NCBI GenBank assembly: GCA_018821785.1
Contig: JAHJLI010000066.1
Coordinates: 48,262 to 112,261, forward strand
From: Pseudomonadota bacterium
GTDB taxonomy: Bacteria > Desulfobacterota > Desulfobulbia > Desulfobulbales > Desulfocapsaceae
DNA: 64,000 bases
Reading direction: 5' to 3'
The notes below the pieces were generated by a model. The model saw nothing but the letters and a program-made list of their open reading frames with translations. It was not told the origin of the DNA and did no database searches. The position numbers were made by a program, and so were the translations under genes. The first letter of the stretch is position 1. Each line of letters starts with the position of its first letter. Shown here in pieces: positions 6-56,850 of this stretch.

Positions 6-82
6 TTAGTACCTTAGAAATTCGTTTCTTGTTTTTTATTAAGGAACTTCTAAGGCACTTATCCCGTTTATCGGGGTTAGAG
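6..82 (+). repeat. Dispersed palindromic repeat, copy A
   Basis: CCTTAGAA...TTCTAAGG stem plus GGCACTTATCCCGTTTATCGGGGTTAG core. Confidence 0.75.
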
Positions 83-199
83 AAAGTCGGTGGGATGGTG
101 GTGGTGCCGTTGAAGATTGCCGGCATAGTCAAAGGAGCTTTTGTGGGCCCGTGCAAGAGAAAACTATTTGTCTTTTTCAACTATATCCTTGAAAGTGAT

Positions 200-1135
200 A
201 TGGCTCTGCCGGAGCTGACAGATATCGATGATCCAGCCGCGCTGGCGGATATTTATTTTCAGGTTTCTGACGATCAGACCGAATACACCAGAGCTCGGGA
301 ATGGCTGCACCACTGGAAGGCACCGGACCAATCAGTGACCCTCTCTTTTGCCAGAGAGGAAGATACGTTGTTTCTGCATTTTCCGGGTATGGCATGTTTC
401 GAAATAGGCAATAACGGTCATCTTGTCACCTGTCATGCCAGGCCTTCTCTCTCATCTGCAACGATTCGTCATCTCCTTTTGGACCAGGTCCTTCCGCGAC
501 TTTTCGCACATTTTTTTTCATGTAGCGTTTTCCATGCCAGTTTCGTGGTTGTTAACGGCAAAGGAATTTGTTTTCTGGCAGATTCTGGTTGGGGTAAATC
601 AACCATTGCTGCCGGCTTGGGCGGAGCAGGCCATACGATCTTGACGGACGATTGCCTCAGTATTGCTGTACGCAATCATCGTATCACTGGTACCCCGGCC
701 TATTGCGGAATCAGACTCTTAGCCGATTCGCTTGAAAAGCTCGGAGGTTCCTTGAAAACTCCACGGGAAACAGTCGCTGAATATACCTCCAAAAAGCGAA
801 TTTCCCTGGCACCCCAGGAAACTTTGGGCTCTTTGGCTTTGGAAGCTCTCCCACTGCAAGCCCTCTTTCTTCTGACCTCGCCGCAAGAAACAAAAGACTG
901 CCATAAACCAGAGATAGTTTCTGTGGGTGGAATTTCAGCCATGAAGGAGCTCCTGAAAAACAGCTTTTGCCTTGATGTTCATGATCAGCAATGGCAACAG
1001 GCTCACTTTCGGCGAGTTTCTGCGGTAGCCGCCAGTGGCCTACCTATCTTCTCTCTGCGTTACCCCAGAAAGTACCAAACCCTTCCCGAAGTTGAAAAAG
1101 TCATCATAAAGACCTTGGATCAACTCTCAAGATAA
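200..1135 (+). CDS. HPr kinase/serine kinase-like protein of a lasso peptide cluster
   Basis: ORF 29..1135; P-loop ADSGWGKST and LTDDCLSI motif; upstream of lasso cyclase. The TTG start at 29 lies inside a dispersed repeat, so Met at 95 or 200 is more likely. Confidence 0.75.
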   Translation: MALPELTDIDDPAALADIYFQVSDDQTEYTRAREWLHHWKAPDQSVTLSFAREEDTLFLHFPGMACFEIGNNGHLVTCHARPSLSSATIRHLLLDQVLPRLFAHFFSCSVFHASFVVVNGKGICFLADSGWGKSTIAAGLGGAGHTILTDDCLSIAVRNHRITGTPAYCGIRLLADSLEKLGGSLKTPRETVAEYTSKKRISLAPQETLGSLALEALPLQALFLLTSPQETKDCHKPEIVSVGGISAMKELLKNSFCLDVHDQQWQQAHFRRVSAVAASGLPIFSLRYPRKYQTLPEVEKVIIKTLDQLSR

Positions 1136-1153
1136 ATAGGTAGAAGAGGTAAA

Positions 1154-3067
1154 ATGAGCGGTATACTCGGAACCATCCAAACTATGGGAAATCGTTTTGA
1201 CCCCAATACATTTAAAGCCATGCTGGATTCGCTTCATCAACGTGGCCCGGATGGGATAGGTCTCTGGCACAACCACATTGTCGGACTTGGTCACCGAATG
1301 CTCCGCACTACCCCTGAAGCGCATTTAGAAAAACTCCCCTGGCACGATGTAGAAACTGAGTGCGTCATTACCTCGGATGCCCGTCTCGACAATCGGCGTG
1401 AACTGATAGGCGCATTGGGAAAACACAATTTTAAAATGGAGAGTATTCCAGACAGCAGTATCATTTTGCGATCCTATCAGAAGTGGGGCAAGAATTGCGT
1501 ACACCACCTCATTGGTGATTTTTCCTTTGCTATCTGGGATATCAACAAACAGCAACTTTTTTGTGCCCGCGACTTTCTTGGGGTAAAACCTTTTTACTAC
1601 TGTTTCCTCAACGGACTGTTTCTGTTCTGTTCAGAAGCGCGGGTTATTGCCAGATACTCCGGTTTGCCGTTCAATATTAACGAACCACGTATCGCCGACT
1701 CTCTCACTCCCCACCTTGAGGGATACGATACAATCTCAACCTTCTATAAAGAGATATTCAAGCTTTCCCCCGCCCATACACTTGTGTTTAAAAACAACCA
1801 TGTTCAAATCAATCGATACTGGCAGCCGGAACCGCAAGAGGCGAATGTTTTTAAGTCCGACGATGAGTACCGCGAGGCACTGACTGAAATCTTGACACGG
1901 GCAGTGGCAGACCGGTGTCGCGGAGAAAAAGCCCCGGCTGTGCTTCTGAGCGGCGGAGTGGATTCTGCGGCGGTTATGGGTATTGCTCAATATTTTTGCA
2001 GAGATATCTCCGGTAATATCGTCCATGGCTACTCAGGCTCCTCGGAAGACATCTCAGGCTGTAAAGAATCGAGAATGATATCAGTACTGAGTGGCAGCGG
2101 AGAGATGAACCATCATCTCTACACACCCAACAACCTGAGCGAGCATCTGGACCCTGTTTTTGATCTTGTCTCGCAACTGCACGAACCATTTGACTTTGGC
2201 ATGATTCTTCACTTTCTGCTTTATCAGCAAGCTGCCAAAAACGGCAGCCGGGTTATGCTCGATGGCGTCGATGGTGATATCGCGGCGTCTCTTCCCTCTA
2301 GTTATCCAACTCATCTTCTGCGACAATTTGCTTTCAAGACAGCCTGGCACGAGATTTTTGCACAAAGCCACAATTTTTTAGCTGGAAAGGTCTCGCCATA
2401 TAAGCAGTTATTGGGCTATTTCCTCTCAGCGTTTACCCCCCAGATCTTGAAAGAATATCGCTGGCGACTCAAACTGCCGGCAATGATGAGAGAATATCTG
2501 GCCGATTCAGTGGCCGCCGAACCATTTGCCGAAAAAGTGGGTTTACAGGACAGGTTGCTGACGTTTGAGAGAACGCATAGGAAACAAGAGCTTTCTTTCC
2601 CTTATGAGGTCTCTCTCAACCGTGTACAACATCCATTCCTGACCGTCGGTCTCGAAAGATACGACAGGGTGGCCTCATTATGCTCCATAGAACCGCGGCA
2701 CCCCCTTCTCGACAAACGAGTAATTGACTTTCATATGGGCTTGCCTTGGAACCAATTTATGCGAGAAGGTTGGTCAAAGTTTCTTCTCCGTCGGGTAGCT
2801 GAACAGTTTGTGCCACGGGAGGTGTGCTGGAGAGTCGGCAAGGAGCATATGGGCTGGCAGTTCACCAAAAAAATGTTGCAGCTCAAACAGGATGCAATTT
2901 ATCAGCAAATTTTATTGCAAGATGATAAGGTTAAGAAAATGATTAAATCGGAATTTACTTCTTGCCGATTAAGAAAAGATGGGGACAATAAAGAATCTCA
3001 ACAAACAGCAATTCATACTGACGTCGCTGGATTAGTTTTATGGCTGAATAACAATCAGGAACTGTAG
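1154..3067 (+). CDS. Asparagine synthetase-like lasso peptide macrolactam synthetase (C protein)
   Basis: 637 aa; N-terminal glutaminase-like domain (MSGILG..., QRGPDG, DARLDNRREL) and synthetase PP-loop LLSGGVDSAAV; directly precedes a lasso precursor. Confidence 0.88.
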   Translation: MSGILGTIQTMGNRFDPNTFKAMLDSLHQRGPDGIGLWHNHIVGLGHRMLRTTPEAHLEKLPWHDVETECVITSDARLDNRRELIGALGKHNFKMESIPDSSIILRSYQKWGKNCVHHLIGDFSFAIWDINKQQLFCARDFLGVKPFYYCFLNGLFLFCSEARVIARYSGLPFNINEPRIADSLTPHLEGYDTISTFYKEIFKLSPAHTLVFKNNHVQINRYWQPEPQEANVFKSDDEYREALTEILTRAVADRCRGEKAPAVLLSGGVDSAAVMGIAQYFCRDISGNIVHGYSGSSEDISGCKESRMISVLSGSGEMNHHLYTPNNLSEHLDPVFDLVSQLHEPFDFGMILHFLLYQQAAKNGSRVMLDGVDGDIAASLPSSYPTHLLRQFAFKTAWHEIFAQSHNFLAGKVSPYKQLLGYFLSAFTPQILKEYRWRLKLPAMMREYLADSVAAEPFAEKVGLQDRLLTFERTHRKQELSFPYEVSLNRVQHPFLTVGLERYDRVASLCSIEPRHPLLDKRVIDFHMGLPWNQFMREGWSKFLLRRVAEQFVPREVCWRVGKEHMGWQFTKKMLQLKQDAIYQQILLQDDKVKKMIKSEFTSCRLRKDGDNKESQQTAIHTDVAGLVLWLNNNQEL

Positions 3068-3265
3068 ATGAAACAGCACCAAAAATATCAGGACAATGTC
3101 CTTAGCATTCTCAAGAAAAAAATCTACAGCAAGCCGGTTTTGACAGTATTGGGGGAGGTTTCCGAGTTGACGACAGGTGGCAGCACGCAGGCCTCAGAAT
3201 TGAGCAACAATGGTGAATGCAAAAAAAACGTTGGCAATGGCCACAATAACACCCCCCGCTGCTAA
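3068..3265 (+). CDS. Lasso peptide precursor
   Basis: 65 aa; leader matches YxxPxLxxxGxxxxxTx exactly (YSKPVLTVLGEVSELTT), then core GGSTQASELSNNGECKKNVGNGHNNTPRC with Gly1 and Glu8 (8-residue ring). Start abuts the cyclase stop. Confidence 0.88.
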   Translation: MKQHQKYQDNVLSILKKKIYSKPVLTVLGEVSELTTGGSTQASELSNNGECKKNVGNGHNNTPRC

Positions 3266-3275
3266 AGCAAAACCA

Positions 3276-3340
3276 AGGGGTCAGGTCTCAACTCTTGACA
3301 TTCGAGCAACTAAACATGTCAAGTGTTGAGACCTGACCCT
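3276..3340. repeat. Inverted repeat (REP/RAYT-like hairpin) between precursor and RRE gene
   Basis: AGGGGTCAGGTCTCAACTCTTGACA / TGTCAAGTGTTGAGACCTGACCCT, about 24-bp arms with one mismatch. Confidence 0.8.
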
Positions 3341-3369
3341 CTCACTGCACATGACCCTCTCACTGCACA
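3334..3369. repeat. 18-bp tandem duplication (TGACCCTCTCACTGCACA x2)
   Basis: Directly visible; the first copy overlaps the right arm of the hairpin. Confidence 0.9.
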
Positions 3370-3379
3370 AAGAGAAGTT

Positions 3380-3703
3380 ATGGTTGAAACTGATTTATCG
3401 GCAATGATTGATACAAAAATCGATACGTTGATCTTCCGCAGATCACCCGCCAGTATTTCTACCATACTTGAAGGAGAAACAGTTATTCTTGATATAGAAT
3501 CAGGCGTATACAGCGGTCTCAATGAAGTAGGTACGTCAGTGTGGAACCTTCTGGAAAATCAGGTAACTTTTGCCGAGATACGAGAAACAATTTTAGCAGA
3601 ATTTGATGTTGCCTTAGAGGAGTGCTCAGAAAATCTGGTATCTTTTTTAAAGGAACTCGAACAGAATAAACTGATAGAGGTAAGGGTTGGTACGAATACG
3701 TAA
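3380..3703 (+). CDS. PqqD-like RRE protein (lasso B1)
   Basis: PqqD-like VILDIESGVYSGLNEVGTSVWNLLE ... EFDVALEECSENLVSFLKELEQNKLIEV. ORF opens at 3323; Met at 3380 preferred. Confidence 0.85.
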   Translation: MVETDLSAMIDTKIDTLIFRRSPASISTILEGETVILDIESGVYSGLNEVGTSVWNLLENQVTFAEIRETILAEFDVALEECSENLVSFLKELEQNKLIEVRVGTNT

Positions 3704-4124
3704 GTTCTTCTGTTTACCTGCAGAAGAAAAAGTAATTTTTCTTCGAGCTCTATTTCTTCTTGTTTATGTTCGATTTTCCTTACAATTCAAACAATTTAAA
3801 AACGTTGTCAAAGATGTTTCCAATAAAGCAGCGTCGCAAAATTCTGTTCAAAAAAACAGCATCCTGCCTTCTAGAGTCGCCCACCTGTTAAATGCTGCCG
3901 GAAATACTATCCCTTACACAACCTGTCTCCCAAGAGCTTTAGCGGGTTCAATTTTATTGAGCTCACTGGGGTATCAAACCAAGCTACACATCGGTGTAAC
4001 CAGAAAAGACGGCAGTATGCTAGAGGCACATGCATGGTTAACTCTTAATGGCAGTGTCATTGTCGGCTACCGTTCGGATCTGGATTGCTACCAGCAATTT
4101 AATCAGGATACAGGAGGAAGCTGA
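3687..4124 (+). CDS. Transglutaminase-like lasso leader peptidase (B2)
   Basis: TCLPRALAGSILLSSLGYQTKLHIGV ... LEAHAWLTLNG: Cys/His of the B2 family; overlaps the RRE ORF. Confidence 0.85.
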   Translation: MVRIRKFFCLPAEEKVIFLRALFLLVYVRFSLQFKQFKNVVKDVSNKAASQNSVQKNSILPSRVAHLLNAAGNTIPYTTCLPRALAGSILLSSLGYQTKLHIGVTRKDGSMLEAHAWLTLNGSVIVGYRSDLDCYQQFNQDTGGS

Positions 4125-42498: not shown

Positions 42499-42627
42499 AG
42501 TATGCAATTAGCCTGGAATTACTTTCATCGACATGAGGTATTTGAGTTTTGATAACTAGCTTTTCGGGCAGTCTGAGAAGCGATTTCCTTCCGCCCACGT
42601 TATTTGTGGTCTTTCAAGGGGAAAGAT

Positions 42628-44943
42628 GTGAAGAAAAACAGTATCAACCCAAATTTGTACAACGAGGTCAAGCAGCTTGGGGCCAAGGACATGGAAGCAT
42701 GCATGCAGTGCGGCAACTGCGCGTCGGCTTGTCCTTTGTCTGCTGGGGAAAACACCTTCCCCCGAAAAATCTACCGCTATCTCCAGCTCGGCCTGAAAGA
42801 TAAGCTGCTGGAATCACCCGAGCCCTGGCTCTGCTATTATTGCGGTGATTGCAACACCGATTGTCCACGCGGCGCGGAACCAGCCGAAACAATGATGGCA
42901 GCCCGCCGCTGGCTGATAACCCAGTACGACTGGACTGGGCTTGCCGCGAAATTCTATACCTCGCCGAAAACGGAGGTAGGCGCCTTTTTGGCGATCGCGC
43001 TCTTCGTTATTTCGCTGTTCGTGATCTTCCATGGCCCGGTCGTCACCGACCGTGTGGAGCTCAACACCTTTGCACCGGTCCATTGGGTCCATATCGGCGA
43101 CCAGATCATGATCCTCATCGTGTTCGCCCTGCTGTTCGCCAATGCCGCCAAAATGTATTTCGGCATCATGCAGGGCACCAAAGTGCCGCTCCATCTCTAT
43201 CTCACCCAGGCACCAGTCTTCATAGTCAACTATTTCACCCAGAAACGTTGGCGAAAATGCGGCACCGGTACTGGCAGCGCCTGGTGGCGGCACTTCTTCT
43301 TGTTCTCCGGCTGGGTAACAATGGAAGTCTTGGTCATGATAACCCTTGCGGCGTTTCAGACTGATATCGTCCACCCCTTCTGGCATCCGACACGCATTTT
43401 CGGTTACTACGCCACCATCGCCTTGATGTTCGGCGCCACTACCATGCTCTACAGTCGCTGGTTCAAAAAGGAGCAAAAGCTGCATCGTTATTCAGATTTC
43501 ACTGATCTCTTCTTCCTGGTTTTGATCATCGCCATTGCCGCTACCGGCATCATGGTGCACATCTTCCGTTTGGCCGGTTTACCCATCCTCACCTACACCA
43601 TCTATGTCATCCATGTGGGAATCTGTGTCGGCATGCTCGTCCTGATGCTGCCCTTCGGCAAGCTTTCGCATCTCATGTACCGACCCCTGGCTATTTTTCT
43701 ATGCACAATAAAAGAAAAGGCTCAGAAAGAGTCCGAGGCAAAATTCGCTACTATCCGCCAACAAGTTGGTGATGCCTTCCAAAGCTGCATGCAGTGCGGC
43801 ACCTGTTCCGCTGTCTGCGCCGGGGCAGAAGTCGCTGCTTTCAACCCGCGTCTGGTGCTCCGTAATATCTCTTTAGACCGTGGATCCAATGTCTCGGTTG
43901 ATAACGCTGCATGGGGCTGTGTTACCTGCAACAGTTGTGTTGAACATTGTCCTCGCGGCATCGGCGTCCTTGATCTTATCAAGTCGGTTCGTCGCCAGGT
44001 GGTTGCGGCCGGCCTACTGCCGAAGAGTTTTGAGACCCCGATCTCAAGCCTGAAGAAAAATGGCAATCCATGGGGCGGCAAGAAGGAAAATCGCCTCGAC
44101 TGGGCACAAGGGGCAAAACTCCCTTCCTATACTCAAGAGCACGAATATTGCCTTTTCACTTGTTGCACAACGGCATACGACAATGCGAGTGACAAACCAG
44201 GACAGAAGGCAGGCCTGGCACTGCTCAGCCTCATGTCCCATGCCGGGATTTCTTATGGAAGTCTTGGCACCAAGGAAAATTGTTGTGGTGACATGGTCGA
44301 CAAAGTCGGCGCGGCCGATGTGGCTGCCGATCTGACCAGGAAAAATACTGAGATGTTCCTCGGTGCCGGGGTCAAGAAGATCCTCACTACATCGCCCCAT
44401 TGCCTGAATTCTTTTATTCACGATTATCCAGGATTAAAAACGGCAGTGAACATTGAACATGCTGTAGAACTCCTCGACAAACTCGTAGCGGATGGCCAGC
44501 TGAAACCGGTCAAAAAGCTGGATCTCTCGGTCACTTACCACGACCCATGCTATCTTGGCCGTCACAACAGTCTGTATGATGCGCCCCGCAGAATTCTCTC
44601 TGCCATCCCAGGATTACAGCTGATAGAAATGCAGAATAGCAAGGACCGCAGCCTCTGCTGTGGCGGTGGCGCCGGTGGACCCTGGAAGGTAGGCACAAAG
44701 GAGATGAGTCTTTCTGAAATTCGAGTCAAGGAGGCCATGGAAACAGGGGCCTCAGTGATCGCCACGGCCTGCCCCTACTGCATTCGTACTCTTAACGAGG
44801 CGATAGTCAAACTCGCTGTCGGAAACAAAATTAAAGTCCAGGATATATCGGAACTGCTGCTGCAGTCGGTGGACTTGTCGGACACTTCCGGCAAACCTGG
44901 AATCAACCATATGAGCTTTTCTCAGGAGGGCCTCCATGTCTGA
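42628..44943 (+). CDS. QmoC-like (HdrC ferredoxin + NarI-type cytochrome b) fused to HdrD-like ferredoxin/CCG domains
   Basis: CMQCGNCASACP, CYYCGDCNTDCPRGAEP, TM region, CMQCGTCSAVC, CVTCNSCVEHCPRG, CCG motifs ENCCGDM and LCCGGGAGG...CPYC. ORF opens at 42604; GTG 42628 has SD. Confidence 0.82.
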   Translation: MKKNSINPNLYNEVKQLGAKDMEACMQCGNCASACPLSAGENTFPRKIYRYLQLGLKDKLLESPEPWLCYYCGDCNTDCPRGAEPAETMMAARRWLITQYDWTGLAAKFYTSPKTEVGAFLAIALFVISLFVIFHGPVVTDRVELNTFAPVHWVHIGDQIMILIVFALLFANAAKMYFGIMQGTKVPLHLYLTQAPVFIVNYFTQKRWRKCGTGTGSAWWRHFFLFSGWVTMEVLVMITLAAFQTDIVHPFWHPTRIFGYYATIALMFGATTMLYSRWFKKEQKLHRYSDFTDLFFLVLIIAIAATGIMVHIFRLAGLPILTYTIYVIHVGICVGMLVLMLPFGKLSHLMYRPLAIFLCTIKEKAQKESEAKFATIRQQVGDAFQSCMQCGTCSAVCAGAEVAAFNPRLVLRNISLDRGSNVSVDNAAWGCVTCNSCVEHCPRGIGVLDLIKSVRRQVVAAGLLPKSFETPISSLKKNGNPWGGKKENRLDWAQGAKLPSYTQEHEYCLFTCCTTAYDNASDKPGQKAGLALLSLMSHAGISYGSLGTKENCCGDMVDKVGAADVAADLTRKNTEMFLGAGVKKILTTSPHCLNSFIHDYPGLKTAVNIEHAVELLDKLVADGQLKPVKKLDLSVTYHDPCYLGRHNSLYDAPRRILSAIPGLQLIEMQNSKDRSLCCGGGAGGPWKVGTKEMSLSEIRVKEAMETGASVIATACPYCIRTLNEAIVKLAVGNKIKVQDISELLLQSVDLSDTSGKPGINHMSFSQEGLHV

Positions 44944-47900
44944 GCGAATTGGGTTTTTCATCTGCCACTGCGGGATTAATATCGCCTATCGGGTCAGAGT
45001 CAAGGAGGTAGCAGAGTATGCCGCTACCTTTCCGGGCGTAGTGGTTGCAAAAGATTATCTGTTTATGTGTTCGGACCCAGGTCAGGACTTGATCGAAAAG
45101 GACGTTAAAAATTTCGATCTGACCCGAGTGGTTGTAGCTTCCTGTTCGCCCCGTATGCATGAAAAAACCTTCCGGGCGGCAACCCAAAGGGCCGGGCTCA
45201 ATCCCTACAAGGCCTTTCATATGGTCAGCGTGCGTGAACATAGTTCCTGGGTGACAGAGAACGAAGACCAGGCAACCGCCAAGGCCATTACCATAGTTCG
45301 AGCCGGACTTATGCGGGTCACCAACCAGAGCGCCCTCACTCCAAGCAAATTCTCCGTTAACCCAAACACCTTGATACTCGGCGGCGGCATTGCTGGAATG
45401 CAGGCGGCTCTCGATATCGCAAGCTCCGGCAACAAGGCTTATCTGGTGGAACGGCAACCCACCGTCGGCGGCCATATGCTGCAGTATGACAAGACCTTCC
45501 CGACACTTGACTGCGCTGCCTGTATCGGCACCCCGAAGATGGTCGCCGTCGGCCAGGAAAAAAACGTCATTCTCATGACCAATTCCGAGGTTGAGAGCGT
45601 CAGCGGCTTTATCGGCAACTTCAAGGTGGCCGTCAATCAACGCTCGCGCTACGTCAAGAGCAACTGCACCGGCTGCAGCGACTGCGCCAAGGTCTGCCCG
45701 GTGGATTTCCCGAATGAATGGGATGTGGATACAAAGATGCGCAAGGCCATCTATATTTCATTTCCCCAAGCGGTTCCGGTGCGTTATGTCATTGACAAAA
45801 AGGACCGTGGCCCCTGCGTCCAGACCTGTCCGGCGGGCATCAACATCCAGGGTTTTGTCGCCCTGATCAAGGTCGGCAAACCTGCCGAGGCCCTGAAGCT
45901 GATCATGGAAAAAATGCCGCTTCCCGGCAGCCTTGGCCGTATCTGCCCCGCCCCGTGCGAGACCGAATGCCGGCGCAAAGAAGTCGATAATCCCTTAGCC
46001 ATATGCCAGTTGAAGCGTTTTGCCGCCGATTCGGTCGATTGGGCAACGCTTCCTGTGCCAACCATCGAGGTGAAACCTGAAAGCGAAAAAGTGGCGATCA
46101 TCGGCGCCGGTCCTGCGGGTCTCTCGGCCGCCTACTTCCTGGCCCTGAAAGGCTATCACCCGACCATTTTCGAAAAGGCGCCGTTCGCCGGCGGTATGCT
46201 GCGCTTCGGCATCCCAGACTACCGGTTGCCCCCCGCTATCCTTGAACAAGAGGTCAACTACATTAAACGTCTTGGCGTCGATATCCAGCTGGGTGCGGGC
46301 ATCGGCAAGGATCGTCCGGTCGGAAGCCTGTTTGCTGAAGGCTTCAAAGCCATCTATCTGGCAACCGGTGCCTGGAAGAGTCGGAAAATGAATATTCCCG
46401 GAGAAGATGCTGAGGGTGTTATGCACGGTATTGACTACCTCAACCTCCTCAACCTGAAGAAACCGGTAAAAACCGGCAAAAGAGTTGTTGTGGTCGGCGG
46501 CGGCGACGTAGCCATTGACGCTGCCCGCGAGGCCCTGCGGCAAGGTGCCGCCGAAGTGAAGATGGTTTACCGACGCTCTCGAGATGAGATGCCCGCCGTC
46601 AAACACGAAATCCAGTCTGCCGAGGATGAAGGCATCAAAATCGACCTCCTTGTCAACCCGATTGCGGTGCTCACCGAAGACGGCAAACTTACGGGGCTGC
46701 GCTGTATCAAGATGGCCCTTGGCGAACCGGATGAATCGGGGAGAAGACGCCCGGTTCCTGTGGAAGGTTCGGAATTCGATATCCCCTGTGACATGATGAT
46801 TCCGGCTATCGGGCAGCAGGTCAACCCGGCCTTTTTGGAAGGGACGACCGGCGTCGAACTGACCCGCTGGGGCACCGTGGCCGCCAACGCCCTTACCTAC
46901 CAGACCAGCGTTCCCGGCATCTTTGCCGGTGGAGACATGTTCACCGGCCCGTCAATCGCCGTTGAGGCTGTAGCCGCCGGCCAGCAGGCAGCGATCTCCA
47001 TCGAGAAGTTTTTACTTGGTGAAGAGCTGACCGAAAACCGCCCCGTGAAACCAAAGGGCACCGACTGGAAGCCGATTCCGAAAAAGCCGTTTGTAGCCTC
47101 CCGGACGAAAATGCCGACTCTGCCGGTTGCAGATCGTATCGGTAATTACAAGGAAATCGAGACCGGCTTCACCGTTGAGCAGGCCCAGACCGAGGCATCC
47201 CGTTGTGTCGATTGCGGTGGCTGCTGTGAATGCAAGCTCTGCCTCGACCAATGCAAGGCCGGGGCCATCGATCACGACATGACCGACAAGCAAGAGACCA
47301 TCGATGTCGGTTCGATCATTGTCGCCACCGGTTTCGATCCAATGAATCCATCGAAGATGAGTCAGTACGGCTACGGTAAATACCGCAACGTATTTACCAA
47401 TATCGAATTCGAGCGACTCTCCAATGCCACCGGACCAACCTCCGGTAAATTACGCAAGCGCGACCTCAAAGATCCGATGAAATTCACCGATGCTCCGAAA
47501 AGCGTAGCTATCCTTCACTGCATCGGCAGTCGTGATCAAAACCATCATGAGTACTGCTCACGTACCTGCTGCATGTATGCCTTGAAATACGCCCATCTCT
47601 TGAAGGATAAATGCGGTCACGATACAGAGATCTATAACTTCTATATCGACATGCGCTGTTTCGGCAAGGGCTACGAGGAATTTTATAAAAAGGTGCAGGC
47701 TGAAGGGGTGAAAATGATCCGCGGCAAAGTCGGTCTCATCACCGAAGATGCCAACGGCATCCTCACCGTCAAGGGTGAAGACACTCTGTCCAACCGCCTG
47801 GTCGAGATTCAAGTTGAGATGGTCATTCTCTGCACGGCGATGGAGGCCCGGCCCGATGCCTCAGATGTTATGCGCAAATTCGGTATAGGTATCGGTTCGG

Positions 47901-48310
47901 ACGGCTTCTTCCAGGAAGAACATCCGAAACTTGCACCGGTCTCAACCCCGACCAGCGGCGTCTTCCTCGCCGGTGCCTGTCAGGGACCAAAGGATATTCC
48001 CGACACCGTGGCCCAGGCCAAAGGTGCCGCGGCCGAGTGCCTGGCGCTCAGTTCGGCAGGCGTCGTTGAAGTGCCGCCGATGATATCTTCTATAGACCGC
48101 GATATCTGCGTCGGTTGTCAACTCTGTATCGGACTCTGTGCCTACACGGCAATTGAGTTTAATCAGTACGCCGGCATCAGTGAGGTCAATACGGCAATAT
48201 GTAAAGGATGCGGAAGTTGTGCCGGGGCATGTCCCAGTGGGGCGGCCAAGGTGCGACATTTTACCGATAAACAGATCTTTGCGGAAATCGATGGGATTTT
48301 ACTTAACTAA
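44936..48310 (+). CDS. HdrA-like flavoprotein with GltD-type NAD(P)H:FAD oxidoreductase insertion
   Basis: FFICHCGINIAYRV, LILGGGIAGMQAALDIA, TFPTLDCAACIGTPKM, inserted GltD-like ...IIGAGPAGLSAAYFLALKGYHPTIFEKAPFAGGML..., C-terminal 2x[4Fe-4S]. Confidence 0.88.
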   Translation: MSERIGFFICHCGINIAYRVRVKEVAEYAATFPGVVVAKDYLFMCSDPGQDLIEKDVKNFDLTRVVVASCSPRMHEKTFRAATQRAGLNPYKAFHMVSVREHSSWVTENEDQATAKAITIVRAGLMRVTNQSALTPSKFSVNPNTLILGGGIAGMQAALDIASSGNKAYLVERQPTVGGHMLQYDKTFPTLDCAACIGTPKMVAVGQEKNVILMTNSEVESVSGFIGNFKVAVNQRSRYVKSNCTGCSDCAKVCPVDFPNEWDVDTKMRKAIYISFPQAVPVRYVIDKKDRGPCVQTCPAGINIQGFVALIKVGKPAEALKLIMEKMPLPGSLGRICPAPCETECRRKEVDNPLAICQLKRFAADSVDWATLPVPTIEVKPESEKVAIIGAGPAGLSAAYFLALKGYHPTIFEKAPFAGGMLRFGIPDYRLPPAILEQEVNYIKRLGVDIQLGAGIGKDRPVGSLFAEGFKAIYLATGAWKSRKMNIPGEDAEGVMHGIDYLNLLNLKKPVKTGKRVVVVGGGDVAIDAAREALRQGAAEVKMVYRRSRDEMPAVKHEIQSAEDEGIKIDLLVNPIAVLTEDGKLTGLRCIKMALGEPDESGRRRPVPVEGSEFDIPCDMMIPAIGQQVNPAFLEGTTGVELTRWGTVAANALTYQTSVPGIFAGGDMFTGPSIAVEAVAAGQQAAISIEKFLLGEELTENRPVKPKGTDWKPIPKKPFVASRTKMPTLPVADRIGNYKEIETGFTVEQAQTEASRCVDCGGCCECKLCLDQCKAGAIDHDMTDKQETIDVGSIIVATGFDPMNPSKMSQYGYGKYRNVFTNIEFERLSNATGPTSGKLRKRDLKDPMKFTDAPKSVAILHCIGSRDQNHHEYCSRTCCMYALKYAHLLKDKCGHDTEIYNFYIDMRCFGKGYEEFYKKVQAEGVKMIRGKVGLITEDANGILTVKGEDTLSNRLVEIQVEMVILCTAMEARPDASDVMRKFGIGIGSDGFFQEEHPKLAPVSTPTSGVFLAGACQGPKDIPDTVAQAKGAAAECLALSSAGVVEVPPMISSIDRDICVGCQLCIGLCAYTAIEFNQYAGISEVNTAICKGCGSCAGACPSGAAKVRHFTDKQIFAEIDGILLN

Positions 48311-48321
48311 GGAGCTAAGTG

Positions 48322-48750
48322 ATGAGCGAGTTTGAACCCAAAATAGTGGCTTTTTTTTGTAACTGGTGCACATTCACCGCAGCGGATCTTGCCGGTACTT
48401 CCCGCCTGTCGTACCCGCCGAATATCAAGATCATCCGGGTAATGTGCAGTGGCATGGTCGACCCGAAATTCGTCCTCAAGGCATTCCTCAATGGAGCCGA
48501 CGGGGTATTGGTCGGCGGATGCTGGCCTGGCGATTGTCATTACATCAATGGCAACTTTAAAGCTAGGCGTCGAGTGGCACTCCTGACCGAAATTCTCAAA
48601 CAGTATGGAATAGACGAAGAGCGTTTCTGGCTGCGGTGGATTGCCGCAAGCGAAGGCAATATGCTCAAGGAAGTTGCAGACTTGATGACGGCGAAACTGA
48701 GAGAACTTGGCCCGAGCCCCCTGCAACAAATGGGACAAATGGTTGGTTGA
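48322..48750 (+). CDS. MvhD-like hydrogenase delta subunit / electron transfer protein
   Basis: FFCNWCTFTAADLAGTSRLSYPPNIKIIRVMCSGMVDP, GGCWPGDCHY. Confidence 0.9.
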   Translation: MSEFEPKIVAFFCNWCTFTAADLAGTSRLSYPPNIKIIRVMCSGMVDPKFVLKAFLNGADGVLVGGCWPGDCHYINGNFKARRRVALLTEILKQYGIDEERFWLRWIAASEGNMLKEVADLMTAKLRELGPSPLQQMGQMVG

Positions 48751-48769
48751 GACACGGAGACGACTAAAA

Positions 48770-49900
48770 ATGGCTACTTTTGCAAAATTGTCTTTTAACA
48801 AAGACGAACTCAATAAAGAACTATCTGGTTTTTTCAAAGGCATCCTGGAAAACGGCGCAGTCGACGCCGTCCTTGCCCCTATGGCCCAAGGCAAGAAAGG
48901 GGTGCGTTTATCCCTCGTCACCTCAGCTGCCAATACCGGCGCGGTGGATCCCTTTGCCCCGGTCGCTGCAGTCAGCGGGGCAAAAATCGCCTCGTCGCTT
49001 ACCGCCAGACCCTCCGGGCGTAAGGTAGCAATGGTCTTGCGCCCCTGTGAGATCCGCGCCACGGTTGAACTGGTGAAACTGAAGCAAGTCAACCTCGACG
49101 ATGTCCTGATGATCGGCATGGACTGCCTCGGTCGCTACGAAAACACCGATTTCACCAAATTTCAGGAACAGGGCGGCACCTCCGAATCCTTCCTCGATAA
49201 TGCCCAGGCTGGAAAGACGGCGACCGGCGATTTCGATGTCGCCGGTGCCTGCAAGATCTGTGAATTTCCAGCTGCCGACAACATCGATCTTCGCCTCTGT
49301 GCCATTGGCTCCGGAAGTGGCGCGGTGCATATCGAGGCGGTGACAGAGAAAGGCAAGGCGGCCCTTGAGAAATCGGGTGTGAAAATTGGTGATGCTCCGG
49401 CAGGCCGAGACGAAGCGGTGAAGAAACTTGTTGCCGTCCGTACCGAGGCAAGAGATAAAAAATTTGCCGAATTCCGGGCCGAGACCGATAATTTCCAGGC
49501 CTTGGGCGAGAAACTGTCAGCCTGCATCAACTGCTATAACTGCCGGGTGGCGTGTCCGGTGTGCTACTGCAAGGAATGCGTCTTTGTCACCGACACCTTC
49601 CGCCATACCGGCGATCAGTTCATGATGTGGGCCGACAAGGGTGGCTTGCTGAAAATGCCCAATGACACCATGTTCTACCATCTGACCCGGATTACTCATA
49701 TGAGTCTCTTCTGCGTCGGCTGCGGACAGTGTACCAGCGCCTGTCCCAATGATATTGACCTGATGCCGCTGTTCAGAACATCAGCCGATAAAACTCAGGC
49801 CAAGTTCAGTTACCAGGCAGGACGTTCGGTCGAGGAAGAGCAGCCGATGGCTGGCTTTGAAGCCGATGAACTGTTTGAAGTGACTGGTCAAGCTAAATAG
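48770..49900 (+). CDS. Coenzyme F420 hydrogenase/dehydrogenase beta-subunit-like (FrhB family) iron-sulfur protein
   Basis: VAMVLRPCEIRATVEL, MDCLG, CINCYNCRVACPVCYC, CVGCGQCTSACPNDI. Confidence 0.82.
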   Translation: MATFAKLSFNKDELNKELSGFFKGILENGAVDAVLAPMAQGKKGVRLSLVTSAANTGAVDPFAPVAAVSGAKIASSLTARPSGRKVAMVLRPCEIRATVELVKLKQVNLDDVLMIGMDCLGRYENTDFTKFQEQGGTSESFLDNAQAGKTATGDFDVAGACKICEFPAADNIDLRLCAIGSGSGAVHIEAVTEKGKAALEKSGVKIGDAPAGRDEAVKKLVAVRTEARDKKFAEFRAETDNFQALGEKLSACINCYNCRVACPVCYCKECVFVTDTFRHTGDQFMMWADKGGLLKMPNDTMFYHLTRITHMSLFCVGCGQCTSACPNDIDLMPLFRTSADKTQAKFSYQAGRSVEEEQPMAGFEADELFEVTGQAK

Positions 49901-49910
49901 GAGTAATATT

Positions 49911-52900
49911 ATGGCAGAAAAAAAGCCTACCGGTACAGTCCTCGTGGCTGGAGCCGGTATATCTGGAATCAAGGCGGCCATAGAGTTAGCTGAAGTAGGG
50001 TATAAGGTGCTGCTGACCGATGCTTCTACCCAGATTGGCGGTATTTTGGCCAAACTTGATTACCAGTTCCCGACAGATCATTGTGGCATGTGCCGCATGC
50101 TGCCCATGGTGGGCCGCGAATACTCTTCGCAGTATTGCATGCGAAAAAGCCTGTTTCATGAAAATATTGAAATCATGCCCTTTGCTGAGATTCAGGCAGT
50201 GCATGGCGATGCGGGAAATTACAAGGTCGACCTGCTGAAACGGGCACGCTACGTTGATCCGTCTCTCTGCAACGAGCTGGAGGAATGTATCGCCGTCTGT
50301 CCTGTGGAAGTCGCCGATGAATTCAACCACGGCCTCACCAAGCGTCGCGCCATTTACCAGGCGATCCCGCACAACACCCCGAAGATGCTGGCTATTGATA
50401 TGCAGGCCTGTACCAGCTGCGGAGAGTGTGTCAAGGTGTGTACTTCCGGTGCCATCAATCTTGAGGCGCAGGATGAGATGGAGACCCGCGAGGTGCATTC
50501 CATTATCCTCGCCTCCGGAGTAAAACTTTACAATACCCGTGAGTTCGAGGATGCCAAGTCCTATGCGGTTTCTCCCGATGTTGTCTCGTCGCTGGCCTTT
50601 GAGCGAATGATGAGCAGTTCCGGCTCATACCGTGACGGCGAGATTAAACGCCCCTCAGACGGTAAGCCAGCGAAAAACATTGCCTGGATCCAGTGTATGG
50701 GTTCCCGCAACCGGCGCCAGAAAAGGGATTACTGCTCGTCCATCTGCTGCATGTTCGCCCTGAAAGAGGCGGTGCTGGCCAAGGAAAAAGGCGGCCCAGG
50801 TGTCGAATCGACCATCTTTTATATGGATATGCGGACGTTTGGCAAGGGCTTCCAGCAGTACCGGGATGATGCGGTCGAAAAACACGGGGTGAATCTTATC
50901 CGCTGCCGGGTGCAGGGTGTTATGAAGAAGCCTGATGGTGCACTTGAGATCCGCTATTTCGATCCGGAAACCAACGAGTTCTTCATCAAGGAGTACGACC
51001 TCGTGGTCCTGTCAACCGGTCAAATCCCTTACGAAACTCATAAAAAATGGGCGGATCTTTTAAATGTTGGGCTTGATTCCCGTGGTCTTCTGGCAACGGA
51101 AGAGTACAGCAAGATCCGCCTTGCCGGCAAACCGGGGCTTTTCATCTGCGGATCGCTGATGGGACTTACCGATGTCAGTGAGGCGATGTCGAGCGGCATT
51201 GCAGCAGCCGGTGAAGCCACCAAATTTCTCTGCGGCATTGGTGCCGACACCGTTAAAGAGGAAGAAATTCCTGAGCCCACCGCTAACGAGCGGGAATTGT
51301 CTCAGGTGTCAGTTGCCCTCTGTAAATGCGGCGAGAAACCAGGTGCCGAAGGCATCGATTATGCCCTCCTCAGCGCCGAACTGCAAAAGTATCACAGCGT
51401 CGGCGAGGTGCAAATCGTCGAATCGTTCTGCAAAGACAATGGTGAAACCGCGGCCGTTGATATCCTTAGTCAGACCAAATGCAACCGCCTGCTGATCGGT
51501 GCCTGCCAACCATTTATGTATCGGCAGAATCTGAAGAATGTCGCCCGCAAGGCTGGGTTCAATTCGTCCCTGGTCGAGGTCTTTGACCTTTTCGGCATTG
51601 CCCGCCAAGGCATGACTCAGCCATCGATTAAAGAGTGGACCATGCGAGCGGCACACGAGGTCAGGGCCGATATCGAAAAGTTGAATTTCAAACCAGCCCT
51701 CCATGTCAGTGCCTTGCCGATCAATCAAAACGCCCTCGTTGTCGGTGGCGGCTTCGGCGGCATGCAGTCGGCCCTGTCACTTGCCATTCGCGGGGTGCCG
51801 GTGCACCTCGTTGAAAAAGATGGCCAGTTAGGCGGCTATCTCGGCAACAATGTCGAGGCAACGGTCGATGGTCTTGCCCCGATGGCCAAGGCCCAGGACA
51901 TGCAGCTGAAGGTCTATCAAAATAAGAACATTACCGTCCATCTCAACTGCGAGGTGGAGAGCACCGTCGGCACCCTTGGCTCCTTTGAATCAAAGCTGGT
52001 CTATAAAGACAGCGGCGAGACAAGCTACCTGCATCACGGCGCGGTCATTATGGCCACAGGTGGACATGAAGGTGCAACCACGGAATACGGCTTAGGAACC
52101 AGCGATCTGGTCATGACCCAGGGACAATTGAAAAAAGGTCTGGCCAGTGGCGACATCGATGTCAGCGGCACCGAGAACATTGTCATGATCCAGTGTGTCG
52201 GTTCGCGGCAAAAGGAAGGACGGCGCTACTGCAGCCGCATCTGCTGCATGTGGGCTATTGCCAACGCCCTGAAGATTAAGGAAAAAAATCCAGACGCCCG
52301 GGTGTTTATTCTTTACCGTGATGTGATGACCTACGGTTTTTACGAACAGTATTATTCCAAGGCCAGGACGGCCGGTATCATTTTCATGAATTACAGCCTG
52401 GACAATAAGCCGCAGATGGAAATGGTTGAAGGCAAACCGGTTGTTAAGTTCATGGACACTGTCTTAAACGAAGAAATCGAACTAACCGCCGATCTGCTCG
52501 TCCTCTCAACCGGCGTTGACCCTGAGGAAAGCAACAACAAGCTCGCTTCCGCCTTCAAGGTAGGGTTAAACGACGACGGTTTTCTTGCCGAGGCCGATTC
52601 GAAATGGCGGCCGATTGAATTCCAGCAGGTCGGCCTGTATCTGGCGGGCACTGCCCATTCACCCATGCCATTGAAAAGCGTGATCATGCAAGCCGAGGCG
52701 GCAGCACAAAAGGCCTATGCCTATCTGTCGGGACGGGAAGTGCATACGGCCGGCGTCGTCTCCAAGGTCAAAGACGCTCACTGCATACGCTGCCAACGCT
52801 GTGTAAATATCTGTCCCTACGGGGCAAGATCGTATGATGATATGGAAAATTGCATCAGTGTCGACCCAGCTGCATGCCAGGCATGTGGTATGTGCGCCGT

Positions 52901-53009
52901 TGAATGTCAGAATAATGCAGCGGAGGTGGCCGGCTGGACCGACAAACAGCTTTTTGCCGTCATTGACGCCAAACTCATGGATGATCTGCTCCTGTCTCCT
53001 GTCGAATAA
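49911..53009 (+). CDS. HdrA-like flavoprotein (second, two FAD-binding modules)
   Basis: VLVAGAGISGIKAAIELAEVGYKVLL, WIQCMGSRNRRQKRDYCSSICCM, second ALVVGGGFGGMQSALSLA, VGSRQKEGRRYCSRICCM, terminal ferredoxin. Confidence 0.87.
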   Translation: MAEKKPTGTVLVAGAGISGIKAAIELAEVGYKVLLTDASTQIGGILAKLDYQFPTDHCGMCRMLPMVGREYSSQYCMRKSLFHENIEIMPFAEIQAVHGDAGNYKVDLLKRARYVDPSLCNELEECIAVCPVEVADEFNHGLTKRRAIYQAIPHNTPKMLAIDMQACTSCGECVKVCTSGAINLEAQDEMETREVHSIILASGVKLYNTREFEDAKSYAVSPDVVSSLAFERMMSSSGSYRDGEIKRPSDGKPAKNIAWIQCMGSRNRRQKRDYCSSICCMFALKEAVLAKEKGGPGVESTIFYMDMRTFGKGFQQYRDDAVEKHGVNLIRCRVQGVMKKPDGALEIRYFDPETNEFFIKEYDLVVLSTGQIPYETHKKWADLLNVGLDSRGLLATEEYSKIRLAGKPGLFICGSLMGLTDVSEAMSSGIAAAGEATKFLCGIGADTVKEEEIPEPTANERELSQVSVALCKCGEKPGAEGIDYALLSAELQKYHSVGEVQIVESFCKDNGETAAVDILSQTKCNRLLIGACQPFMYRQNLKNVARKAGFNSSLVEVFDLFGIARQGMTQPSIKEWTMRAAHEVRADIEKLNFKPALHVSALPINQNALVVGGGFGGMQSALSLAIRGVPVHLVEKDGQLGGYLGNNVEATVDGLAPMAKAQDMQLKVYQNKNITVHLNCEVESTVGTLGSFESKLVYKDSGETSYLHHGAVIMATGGHEGATTEYGLGTSDLVMTQGQLKKGLASGDIDVSGTENIVMIQCVGSRQKEGRRYCSRICCMWAIANALKIKEKNPDARVFILYRDVMTYGFYEQYYSKARTAGIIFMNYSLDNKPQMEMVEGKPVVKFMDTVLNEEIELTADLLVLSTGVDPEESNNKLASAFKVGLNDDGFLAEADSKWRPIEFQQVGLYLAGTAHSPMPLKSVIMQAEAAAQKAYAYLSGREVHTAGVVSKVKDAHCIRCQRCVNICPYGARSYDDMENCISVDPAACQACGMCAVECQNNAAEVAGWTDKQLFAVIDAKLMDDLLLSPVE

Positions 53010-55257: not shown

Positions 55258-56511
55258 CTACGTCTGGAGATAGTTGCCGGCTTCTCTGTAGCCAAATTCC
55301 TTGTGCATGCTGCCCTTCAGATCTTTTACCAACCTCTCCAAGGCTACTCTATACAGAACAGGGTCTTGCCAACTCCGAAAATCACTTATCTCCCGGGTGC
55401 TGCGAATCATTTTCGCCCAGGCTTTTTGGCTGGTAAATATTGCATCATCAATGGTGATTGGAAAAAGGACCTGATTATCATTGATGTAATTTTTCTTCAC
55501 CCGTTCTCTTTCGAGTGCTGCCCCCACCTCATTTTCCATCCAGAAGCCGGCAAGGGATTTCTGTGACAGAATTATGAGCAGCATGTCCTGCATTTTCACC
55601 ATTTTATCAATTTCATGTCTGATTTTCCTGCCGCTTTTAAGGCTTTCACTTGCAAGCCAGCAGCGCACCCCTTGGTTCTGCAGATCTTTTTTAAATCGGT
55701 CGGCAAAATCCTCGTTTTTTGAGGAATATGAGATAAAACATGAAAAATATTCGGAAGGATTGCCAATAAGTGAGGGACTTGCTTCAATCAGATTTTGTGG
55801 TACTCCGGCATGACGAAGGAAATGGTCCGGGATATTCCCGCCAGATTGAAAAAGGGTATCGATTCCGATAGTCGATGGGGCGTGGTGAATAACCTCAGAC
55901 AAGCCGATTGCATGGCTTAAATCGCAATCGGAAAAGATCGTCCCACCAAGACCGGCACCTTGGAAATTGGTGTTTCTCAACAAAGTATCAGAGAAAATGG
56001 TGCCGTTAAGAAGGGTCCTCTGCAGGCTGGCATCCCAAAGATTGGCATTTACCAGGTTGGCTCTTTGCAGATTTGCTCTCTGCAGGGTAGCTCTGCGAAA
56101 ATTGGCCCCCTGGAGGTTAGCCCCCCACAGATTTGCCCCCCGGAGATCGGCTTCAAAAAGATTTGCTTCATGCAGGTTTGCTTCACGAAGATCGGCTCTG
56201 CGAAGATTTGCACCTATCAGGTTGGCCCCCTGAAACTCGGCATACATAAAATACCCGGCAAAGAGATTGGCCCGGGCGAGGTTGGCGGTTTTAAGGTTAG
56301 CCCCTTCAAGGTTAGCTCCTACAAGATCAGTTCCCTGAAGATCGGCACCATGAAGATTTCCGCCGTGCAGATCGACCCATTGCAGGTCCATTGCCGAGAG
56401 ATCTGCTCCTTCCAGTTGCGCCCGGAACATATATTTTTGTCCCTGAACAAATTCTCTCCAGGCATCAACACCCCCACTACGGAGAATTTTCAAGTGTTCT
56501 TGATTTGCCAT
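55258..56511 (-). CDS. Pentapeptide-repeat protein with C-terminal TIR domain
   Basis: Long A(D/N)LxxAN pentapeptide tract; then SCFISYSSKNEDFADRFKKDLQNQGVRCWLASESLKSGRKIRHEIDKMVKMQDMLLIILSQKSLAGFWMENEV. Confidence 0.9.
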   Translation of the reverse strand: MANQEHLKILRSGGVDAWREFVQGQKYMFRAQLEGADLSAMDLQWVDLHGGNLHGADLQGTDLVGANLEGANLKTANLARANLFAGYFMYAEFQGANLIGANLRRADLREANLHEANLFEADLRGANLWGANLQGANFRRATLQRANLQRANLVNANLWDASLQRTLLNGTIFSDTLLRNTNFQGAGLGGTIFSDCDLSHAIGLSEVIHHAPSTIGIDTLFQSGGNIPDHFLRHAGVPQNLIEASPSLIGNPSEYFSCFISYSSKNEDFADRFKKDLQNQGVRCWLASESLKSGRKIRHEIDKMVKMQDMLLIILSQKSLAGFWMENEVGAALERERVKKNYINDNQVLFPITIDDAIFTSQKAWAKMIRSTREISDFRSWQDPVLYRVALERLVKDLKGSMHKEFGYREAGNYLQT

Positions 56512-56850
56512 CGAGATCTCCGTAGCATATTGAGGAGCAGTCACTACATTGCCTGGCCATTTTCAATTTCTAATTTTCTGCTCCCTATAGTGCTTCCAGT
56601 AGTATCTCCGGCTAAGCCCCTTTTTACTCAGGATCAACACTGGCCTTCAATCAATATAGCAAACACAATGTGCTAAATCACGCTTAAACATGTGGATGCT
56701 CATCACTGCCGACGAGTACGGGAGACAATGGCAACACAAGATAGCACTTTGAGCGTACTATGCTTTAGCATTGTGCAGCACAACAAGGCATTGCTTGTAA
56801 AACATCGCCTGTAAAAATTGACGGCAATCATTGTAAATTTTCAGCTGGAC

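Follow-up and report, generated by a model that had tools for sequence, protein, structure and literature searches.

Gene Content and Genomic Setting

The analyzed window is a stretch of 64,000 nucleotides that begins at base 48262 of its 112 kb contig. Five genes of the forward strand occupy its first part (approximately positions 95–4124) and encode, in this order, an HprK-like kinase, a cyclase, a precursor peptide, a discrete RRE protein (B1), and a leader peptidase (B2) (Table 1). Thus, the order kinase-cyclase-precursor-RRE-protease described by an earlier note on this DNA is borne out, and the identification of the locus as a lasso cluster is upheld both by profile matches and by comparison with a paralogue from the same genome and five related precursors. 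We conclude that this is a genuine lasso cluster with a complete biosynthetic set and no adjoining exporter. The latter feature, noted initially for the window, holds after the search range was widened: no ABC exporter was found in the 12 kb upstream of the window, where the neighboring genes encode an AI-2E family transporter, an alpha/beta hydrolase, and a 139-aa protein. Downstream, the cluster is followed by a DUF4147/MOFRL (glycerate-kinase-like) gene and then by unrelated genes.

Table 1. Features of the lasso peptide locus and the paralogous precursor gene (positions in the window unless a locus is given).
Feature	Position	Strand	Basis or remark
HprK-like lasso precursor kinase	95–1135, start uncertain	+	TIGR04352, TIGR00679
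Lasso cyclase (C protein, asparagine-synthetase-like)	1154–3067	+	PF00733, NF033535
Lasso precursor A, 65 aa	3068–3265	+	NF033521
Leader of precursor A	3068–3175	+	predicted
Core of precursor A, GGSTQASELSNNGECKKNVGNGHNNTPRC	3176–3262	+	predicted
REP palindrome, inverted repeat with 24-nt arms	3278–3339	.	arms 96% complementary
18-nt tandem direct repeat, overlaps REP edge	3331–3366	.	
B1, discrete RRE (PqqD family)	3380–3703	+	PF05402, NF033536, solved RREs
B2, transglutaminase-like leader peptidase	3687–4124	+	NF033537, PF13471
Paralogous precursor A2, MNVEQLAQEPLSNDPRKEYHKPILTTLGKVSELTTGGSAPETENTNPEVGPPFPNGTPRP	L046:9206–9388 (contig C234, same genome)	-	intact

The cyclase matches the Asn_synthase domain PF00733 (E = 4e-35), and its top NCBIfam match is the lasso cyclase model NF033535 (lass_lactam_cya), at 469 bits under a cut-off of 525. 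A search of named genomes with the cyclase yielded two distant loci and no others. B1 is similar to PqqD (PF05402, E = 1.7e-16) and to the solved lasso RREs 9x90 and TbiB1 (5v1u); its score against NF033536 (lasso_PqqD_Bac) is 66.5 bits, under the cut-off of 80. B2 scores 70.4 bits against the lasso B2 model NF033537 (cut-off 33) and matches PF13471 with E = 1.3e-18. Neither the kinase nor B2 has an anti-phage defence match, and no Rfam matches were found in the window.

The host genome encodes DsrA (profile score above the cut-off), and hence a sulfate- or sulfite-reducing lifestyle is likely, in line with the initial description of the genome as anaerobe-like. A run of large iron-sulfur and heterodisulfide-reductase-like genes at 42604–53009 of the window, Qmo/Hdr-like by eye, would fit a sulfate reducer. 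Another gene of the window (55258–56544, reverse strand) encodes a pentapeptide-repeat protein with an apparent C-terminal TIR-like domain, recognized by eye only.

The kinase is similar to TIGR04352 (HprK_rel_A, E = 7e-6) and TIGR00679 (E = 2e-7). The start at TTG 29 that had been proposed for it found no support, as the reading frame extends upstream past the start of the window and contains an in-frame ATG at 95. We prefer the latter, with TTG 29 or an upstream start possible: the region conserved among homologues begins near position 165, and the AlphaFold2 model has low confidence over the 18 residues that follow ATG 95. The model as a whole has a pLDDT of 88, and among PDB folds it is most similar to those of HPr kinase and PEPCK. 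Residues H147, G167-K168-S169, and D185-D186 are invariant. A His, GK[ST], and DD are the residues listed for lasso kinases (PMC10368454), and the window kinase retains them at the same spacing, save for an Ala in place of the first P-loop Gly. The kinase shows no visible decay, its frame being intact and its active site invariant.

Precursor Peptide and Its Paralogue

Typical lasso precursors have a YxxPxL leader with Thr(-2) and a core with Asp or Glu at positions 7–9 for the lactam ring. The precursor of the window exceeds the cut-off of the lasso leader model NF033521 (22.6 bits vs 19) and has the motif residues Y(-17), P(-14), L(-12), G(-8), T(-2), G1, and E8. The strict pattern YxxPxLxxxGxxxxxTxG followed by the acidic residue has a single occurrence across the six frames of the window and is absent from all 60 block shuffles. 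The exact leader consensus claimed in the earlier note is therefore confirmed, and its counts for the core (29 residues with G1, E8, C15, and C29) are correct. The 8-residue Gly1-Glu8 ring and the possible tail disulfide, both suggested there, gain support as predictions from the profile matches, the paralogue, and the five related precursors. With known lasso cores reaching 30–33 residues (PMC13352647), the 29-residue core is long but no record. It contains no aromatic residue to lock the thread.

The only strong matches in a search with the precursor profile were the two copies in this genome. The second copy, A2, belongs to a relic lasso cluster on contig C234 (L046:9206–10049), which comprises an intact B1 (43% identical to that of the window), a B2/cyclase deletion remnant, and then the intact A2; beyond A2 lie apparent transposase remnants without a Pfam match. 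The two precursors share the leader end, Gly1, Ser3, Glu8, and the TPR-X end. As a sequence comparison, A2 provides the best evidence supporting the predicted core boundaries of the window precursor. We infer that the window enzymes could also process A2 in trans.

Both Cys residues of the window core lie in the tail. A single disulfide wholly within the tail defines class IV lasso peptides, and hence a C15–C29 bond, which probably forms, would make this a class IV peptide. The number of Cys residues is even in 10 of the 12 Cys-bearing cores gathered (shuffle p = 0.0009). Different arrangements were seen at other loci. Two related precursors (L037:7081–7293, GCAGSGAD..., and L081:5722–5943, GCPGSGSD...), whose genes lie on the strand opposite to the cyclase, carry a Cys at position 2 of the ring and another in the tail, an arrangement that would suit the rare class III lasso peptides. 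The core at L103:10073–10282, ANEDCTNTDCAFPGATGCDDVCS, has four Cys, with a spacing that, to our knowledge, is unlike that of the described two-disulfide (class I) lasso peptides.

The REP palindrome begins 12 nt past the precursor stop codon. Its arm motif has 21 matches in the genome, including the two arms themselves. On contig C166, members of this dispersed set flank a gene for a Y1/IS200-like transposase (PF01797), as expected of REP elements. As RNA, it would form a strong hairpin (fold z = -6.5), and an effect on the stoichiometry of the precursor and B1 is conceivable. We rejected the possibility that insertion of the REP accounts for the missing C-terminal Ser, because A2 has the same TPR-X-stop end with no such palindrome after its stop codon. 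A role as the breakpoint of a B1-B2 move is not supported either, since the kinase also comes first in the closest relative, L079.

A Kinase Clade and Its Precursors

Of the 258 genomes of the order, 45 encode a lasso B2 protein that scores above the cut-off, and hence lasso clusters are ordinary in this lineage. We read precursors and kinases at related loci, placing the core boundaries of the distant ones by keeping the 17-residue distance from the leader Tyr or Trp; a few of these distant cores have no acidic residue at positions 7–9, so their boundaries are uncertain. In the kinase tree, the window kinase falls into a clade of eight (support 0.94). Precursors were readable for six clade members and for 20 other loci.

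All six clade precursors have Gly1 and an acidic residue at position 8, compared with 2/20 others for the latter feature (Fisher p = 1e-4, kinship ignored); the non-clade precursors mostly have the acid at position 9. A C-terminal Ser is absent from the clade (0/6) and present in 16 of the 20 others (p = 9e-4, likewise with kinship ignored), all 20 of which have a Ser within the last two positions. The clade precursors end in T, T, T, T, K, and C. A Gly-Ser pair in the ring occurs in 6/6 clade precursors vs 3/20 others (p = 4e-4, noticed post hoc); the serine is at position 5 in the other five and at position 3 in the window. These tests ignore shared ancestry, and four of the six clade members represent one genus. 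At the sequence level, the new result is a small clade of HprK-fold kinases tied to Gly1/acid-8 cores, none of which ends in Ser. This provides a testable kinase-precursor rule: the common kinases of the order go with a C-terminal Ser, and this clade with a Gly1/acid-8 ring and no C-terminal Ser.

Candidate Phosphorylation Site

Lasso peptides offer stable scaffolds and show activities that include antibacterial ones; among their modifications, phosphorylation is one of the least understood. The kinase is the least ordinary point of the cluster, as the peptide lacks the residue that such kinases usually target, and the phosphorylation site is its one modestly interesting question. PadeK, ThcoK, and SyanK modify the C-terminal Ser of lasso precursors (PMC9266682), BsfK adds its phosphate to core Ser3 in a precursor with a C-terminal Asp (PMC10368454), and LppK likewise acts on Ser3 (PMC13381572). 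Paeninodin-type phosphorylation of a C-terminal Ser is excluded here, because the core ends in Cys and the clade, as opposed to most other precursors, has no Ser-ended member. Given this, and the presence of Ser3 in both the window precursor and A2, Ser3 is favoured: if the kinase is active on this precursor, the odds that Ser3 would be its target appear slightly better than even by analogy with BsfK. The BsfK type is marked by Ser or Thr at core position 3 and by Ile or Val at leader position -2; the window precursor has Ser3, but Thr at -2.

Proposed Maturation and Alternative Explanations

The genes, motifs, kinase fold, and clade relations described above suggest the following route. B1 would bind the YxxPxL leader, which B2 would remove before Gly1, after Thr(-2)-Thr(-1). 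The cyclase would join Gly1 to the side chain of Glu8 around a 21-residue loop and tail, in which C15 and C29 probably pair. Phosphorylation of the precursor by the HprK-fold kinase probably precedes cleavage and targets a hydroxyl away from the C-terminus, most likely that of ring Ser3, next to Gly2. We assign a probability of roughly 55% to this overall explanation, i.e., a lasso cluster without an adjoining exporter, whose product would have a class IV tail and a kinase acting on a non-C-terminal hydroxyl.

The strongest competitor, which we consider possible though clearly less probable, accepts the same lasso cluster with a kinase that acts elsewhere (tail Thr26 or another Ser/Thr) or is left over after the loss of a C-terminal hydroxyl. 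Among the six clade precursors, four have a terminal Thr (those of the window and L080 do not), and the ancestral target could thus still be a C-terminal hydroxyl that the window core, with its terminal Cys, has lost. On the other hand, the invariant active site and intact frame of the kinase are at odds with a leftover gene, and A2 likewise has no C-terminal hydroxyl.

It is improbable that the cluster is silent or decaying. The lack of an ABC exporter in the upstream 12 kb, the strong hairpin expected in the transcript between the precursor and B1, and the relic state of the second cluster all point that way; however, none of the five frames is disrupted, the REP is located outside the coding sequences, and in a motif search that misses some, most of the fetched clusters of the order showed no ABC-type ATPase within 6 kb. 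That the precursor is a chance ORF beside asparagine-synthetase-like genes is very unlikely: short ORFs are common and the cyclase scores below the cut-off of its model, but the leader model is above its own, the pattern is absent from shuffles, and a paralogous precursor adjoins B1 and cyclase remnants on another contig.

Beyond the preferred explanation with its non-C-terminal phosphorylation, a bolder version is speculative and rather doubtful: the distinct kinase clade would phosphorylate the Gly-Ser serine inside the 8-residue ring of peptides that keep Thr(-2) in the leader, as is usual, and often contain a disulfide, and A2 would be matured in trans. If true, this would be a second, separately organised ring phosphorylation besides that of BsfK, here on a class IV peptide, and A2 would be an orphan paralogous precursor served in trans by the window machinery.

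Comparison with Known Systems

Lasso clusters are also present in delta-proteobacterial anaerobes (Desulfobacca, Geobacter, and Pelobacter), i.e., in other organisms and with other precursors; some clusters in the survey that describes them contain HPr kinase genes, known, as here, at the gene level (PMC4289311). The clusters of paeninodin (PadeA/PadeK) and other C-terminally phosphorylated lasso peptides share the HprK-like kinase and split B1/B2 with the window; the substrates of PadeK, ThcoK, and SyanK end in Ser, whereas the window core ends in Cys (PMC9266682). By core length, the window peptide resembles pandonodin (class IV, 33 aa) and achromonodin-1 (30 aa), and pandonodin also has a Cys pair in the tail, the disulfide of the window peptide being a prediction; unlike both, the window cluster has split B1/B2 and a kinase (PMC13352647).

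The bsf cluster of Bradymonas sediminis (BsfA/BsfK/B1/B2/C) shares with the window split B1/B2 and an HprK-like kinase, as judged from its published description (PMC10368454). The cores are also alike in having Ser3, an 8-residue ring starting at Gly1, and no C-terminal Ser; they differ in residues -2 (Thr in the window vs Ile in BsfA) and 8 (Glu vs Asp). In addition, the window core has 29 residues and two Cys, and the window cluster, in contrast to bsf, contains neither a transporter nor a nucleotidyltransferase gene (PMC10368454).
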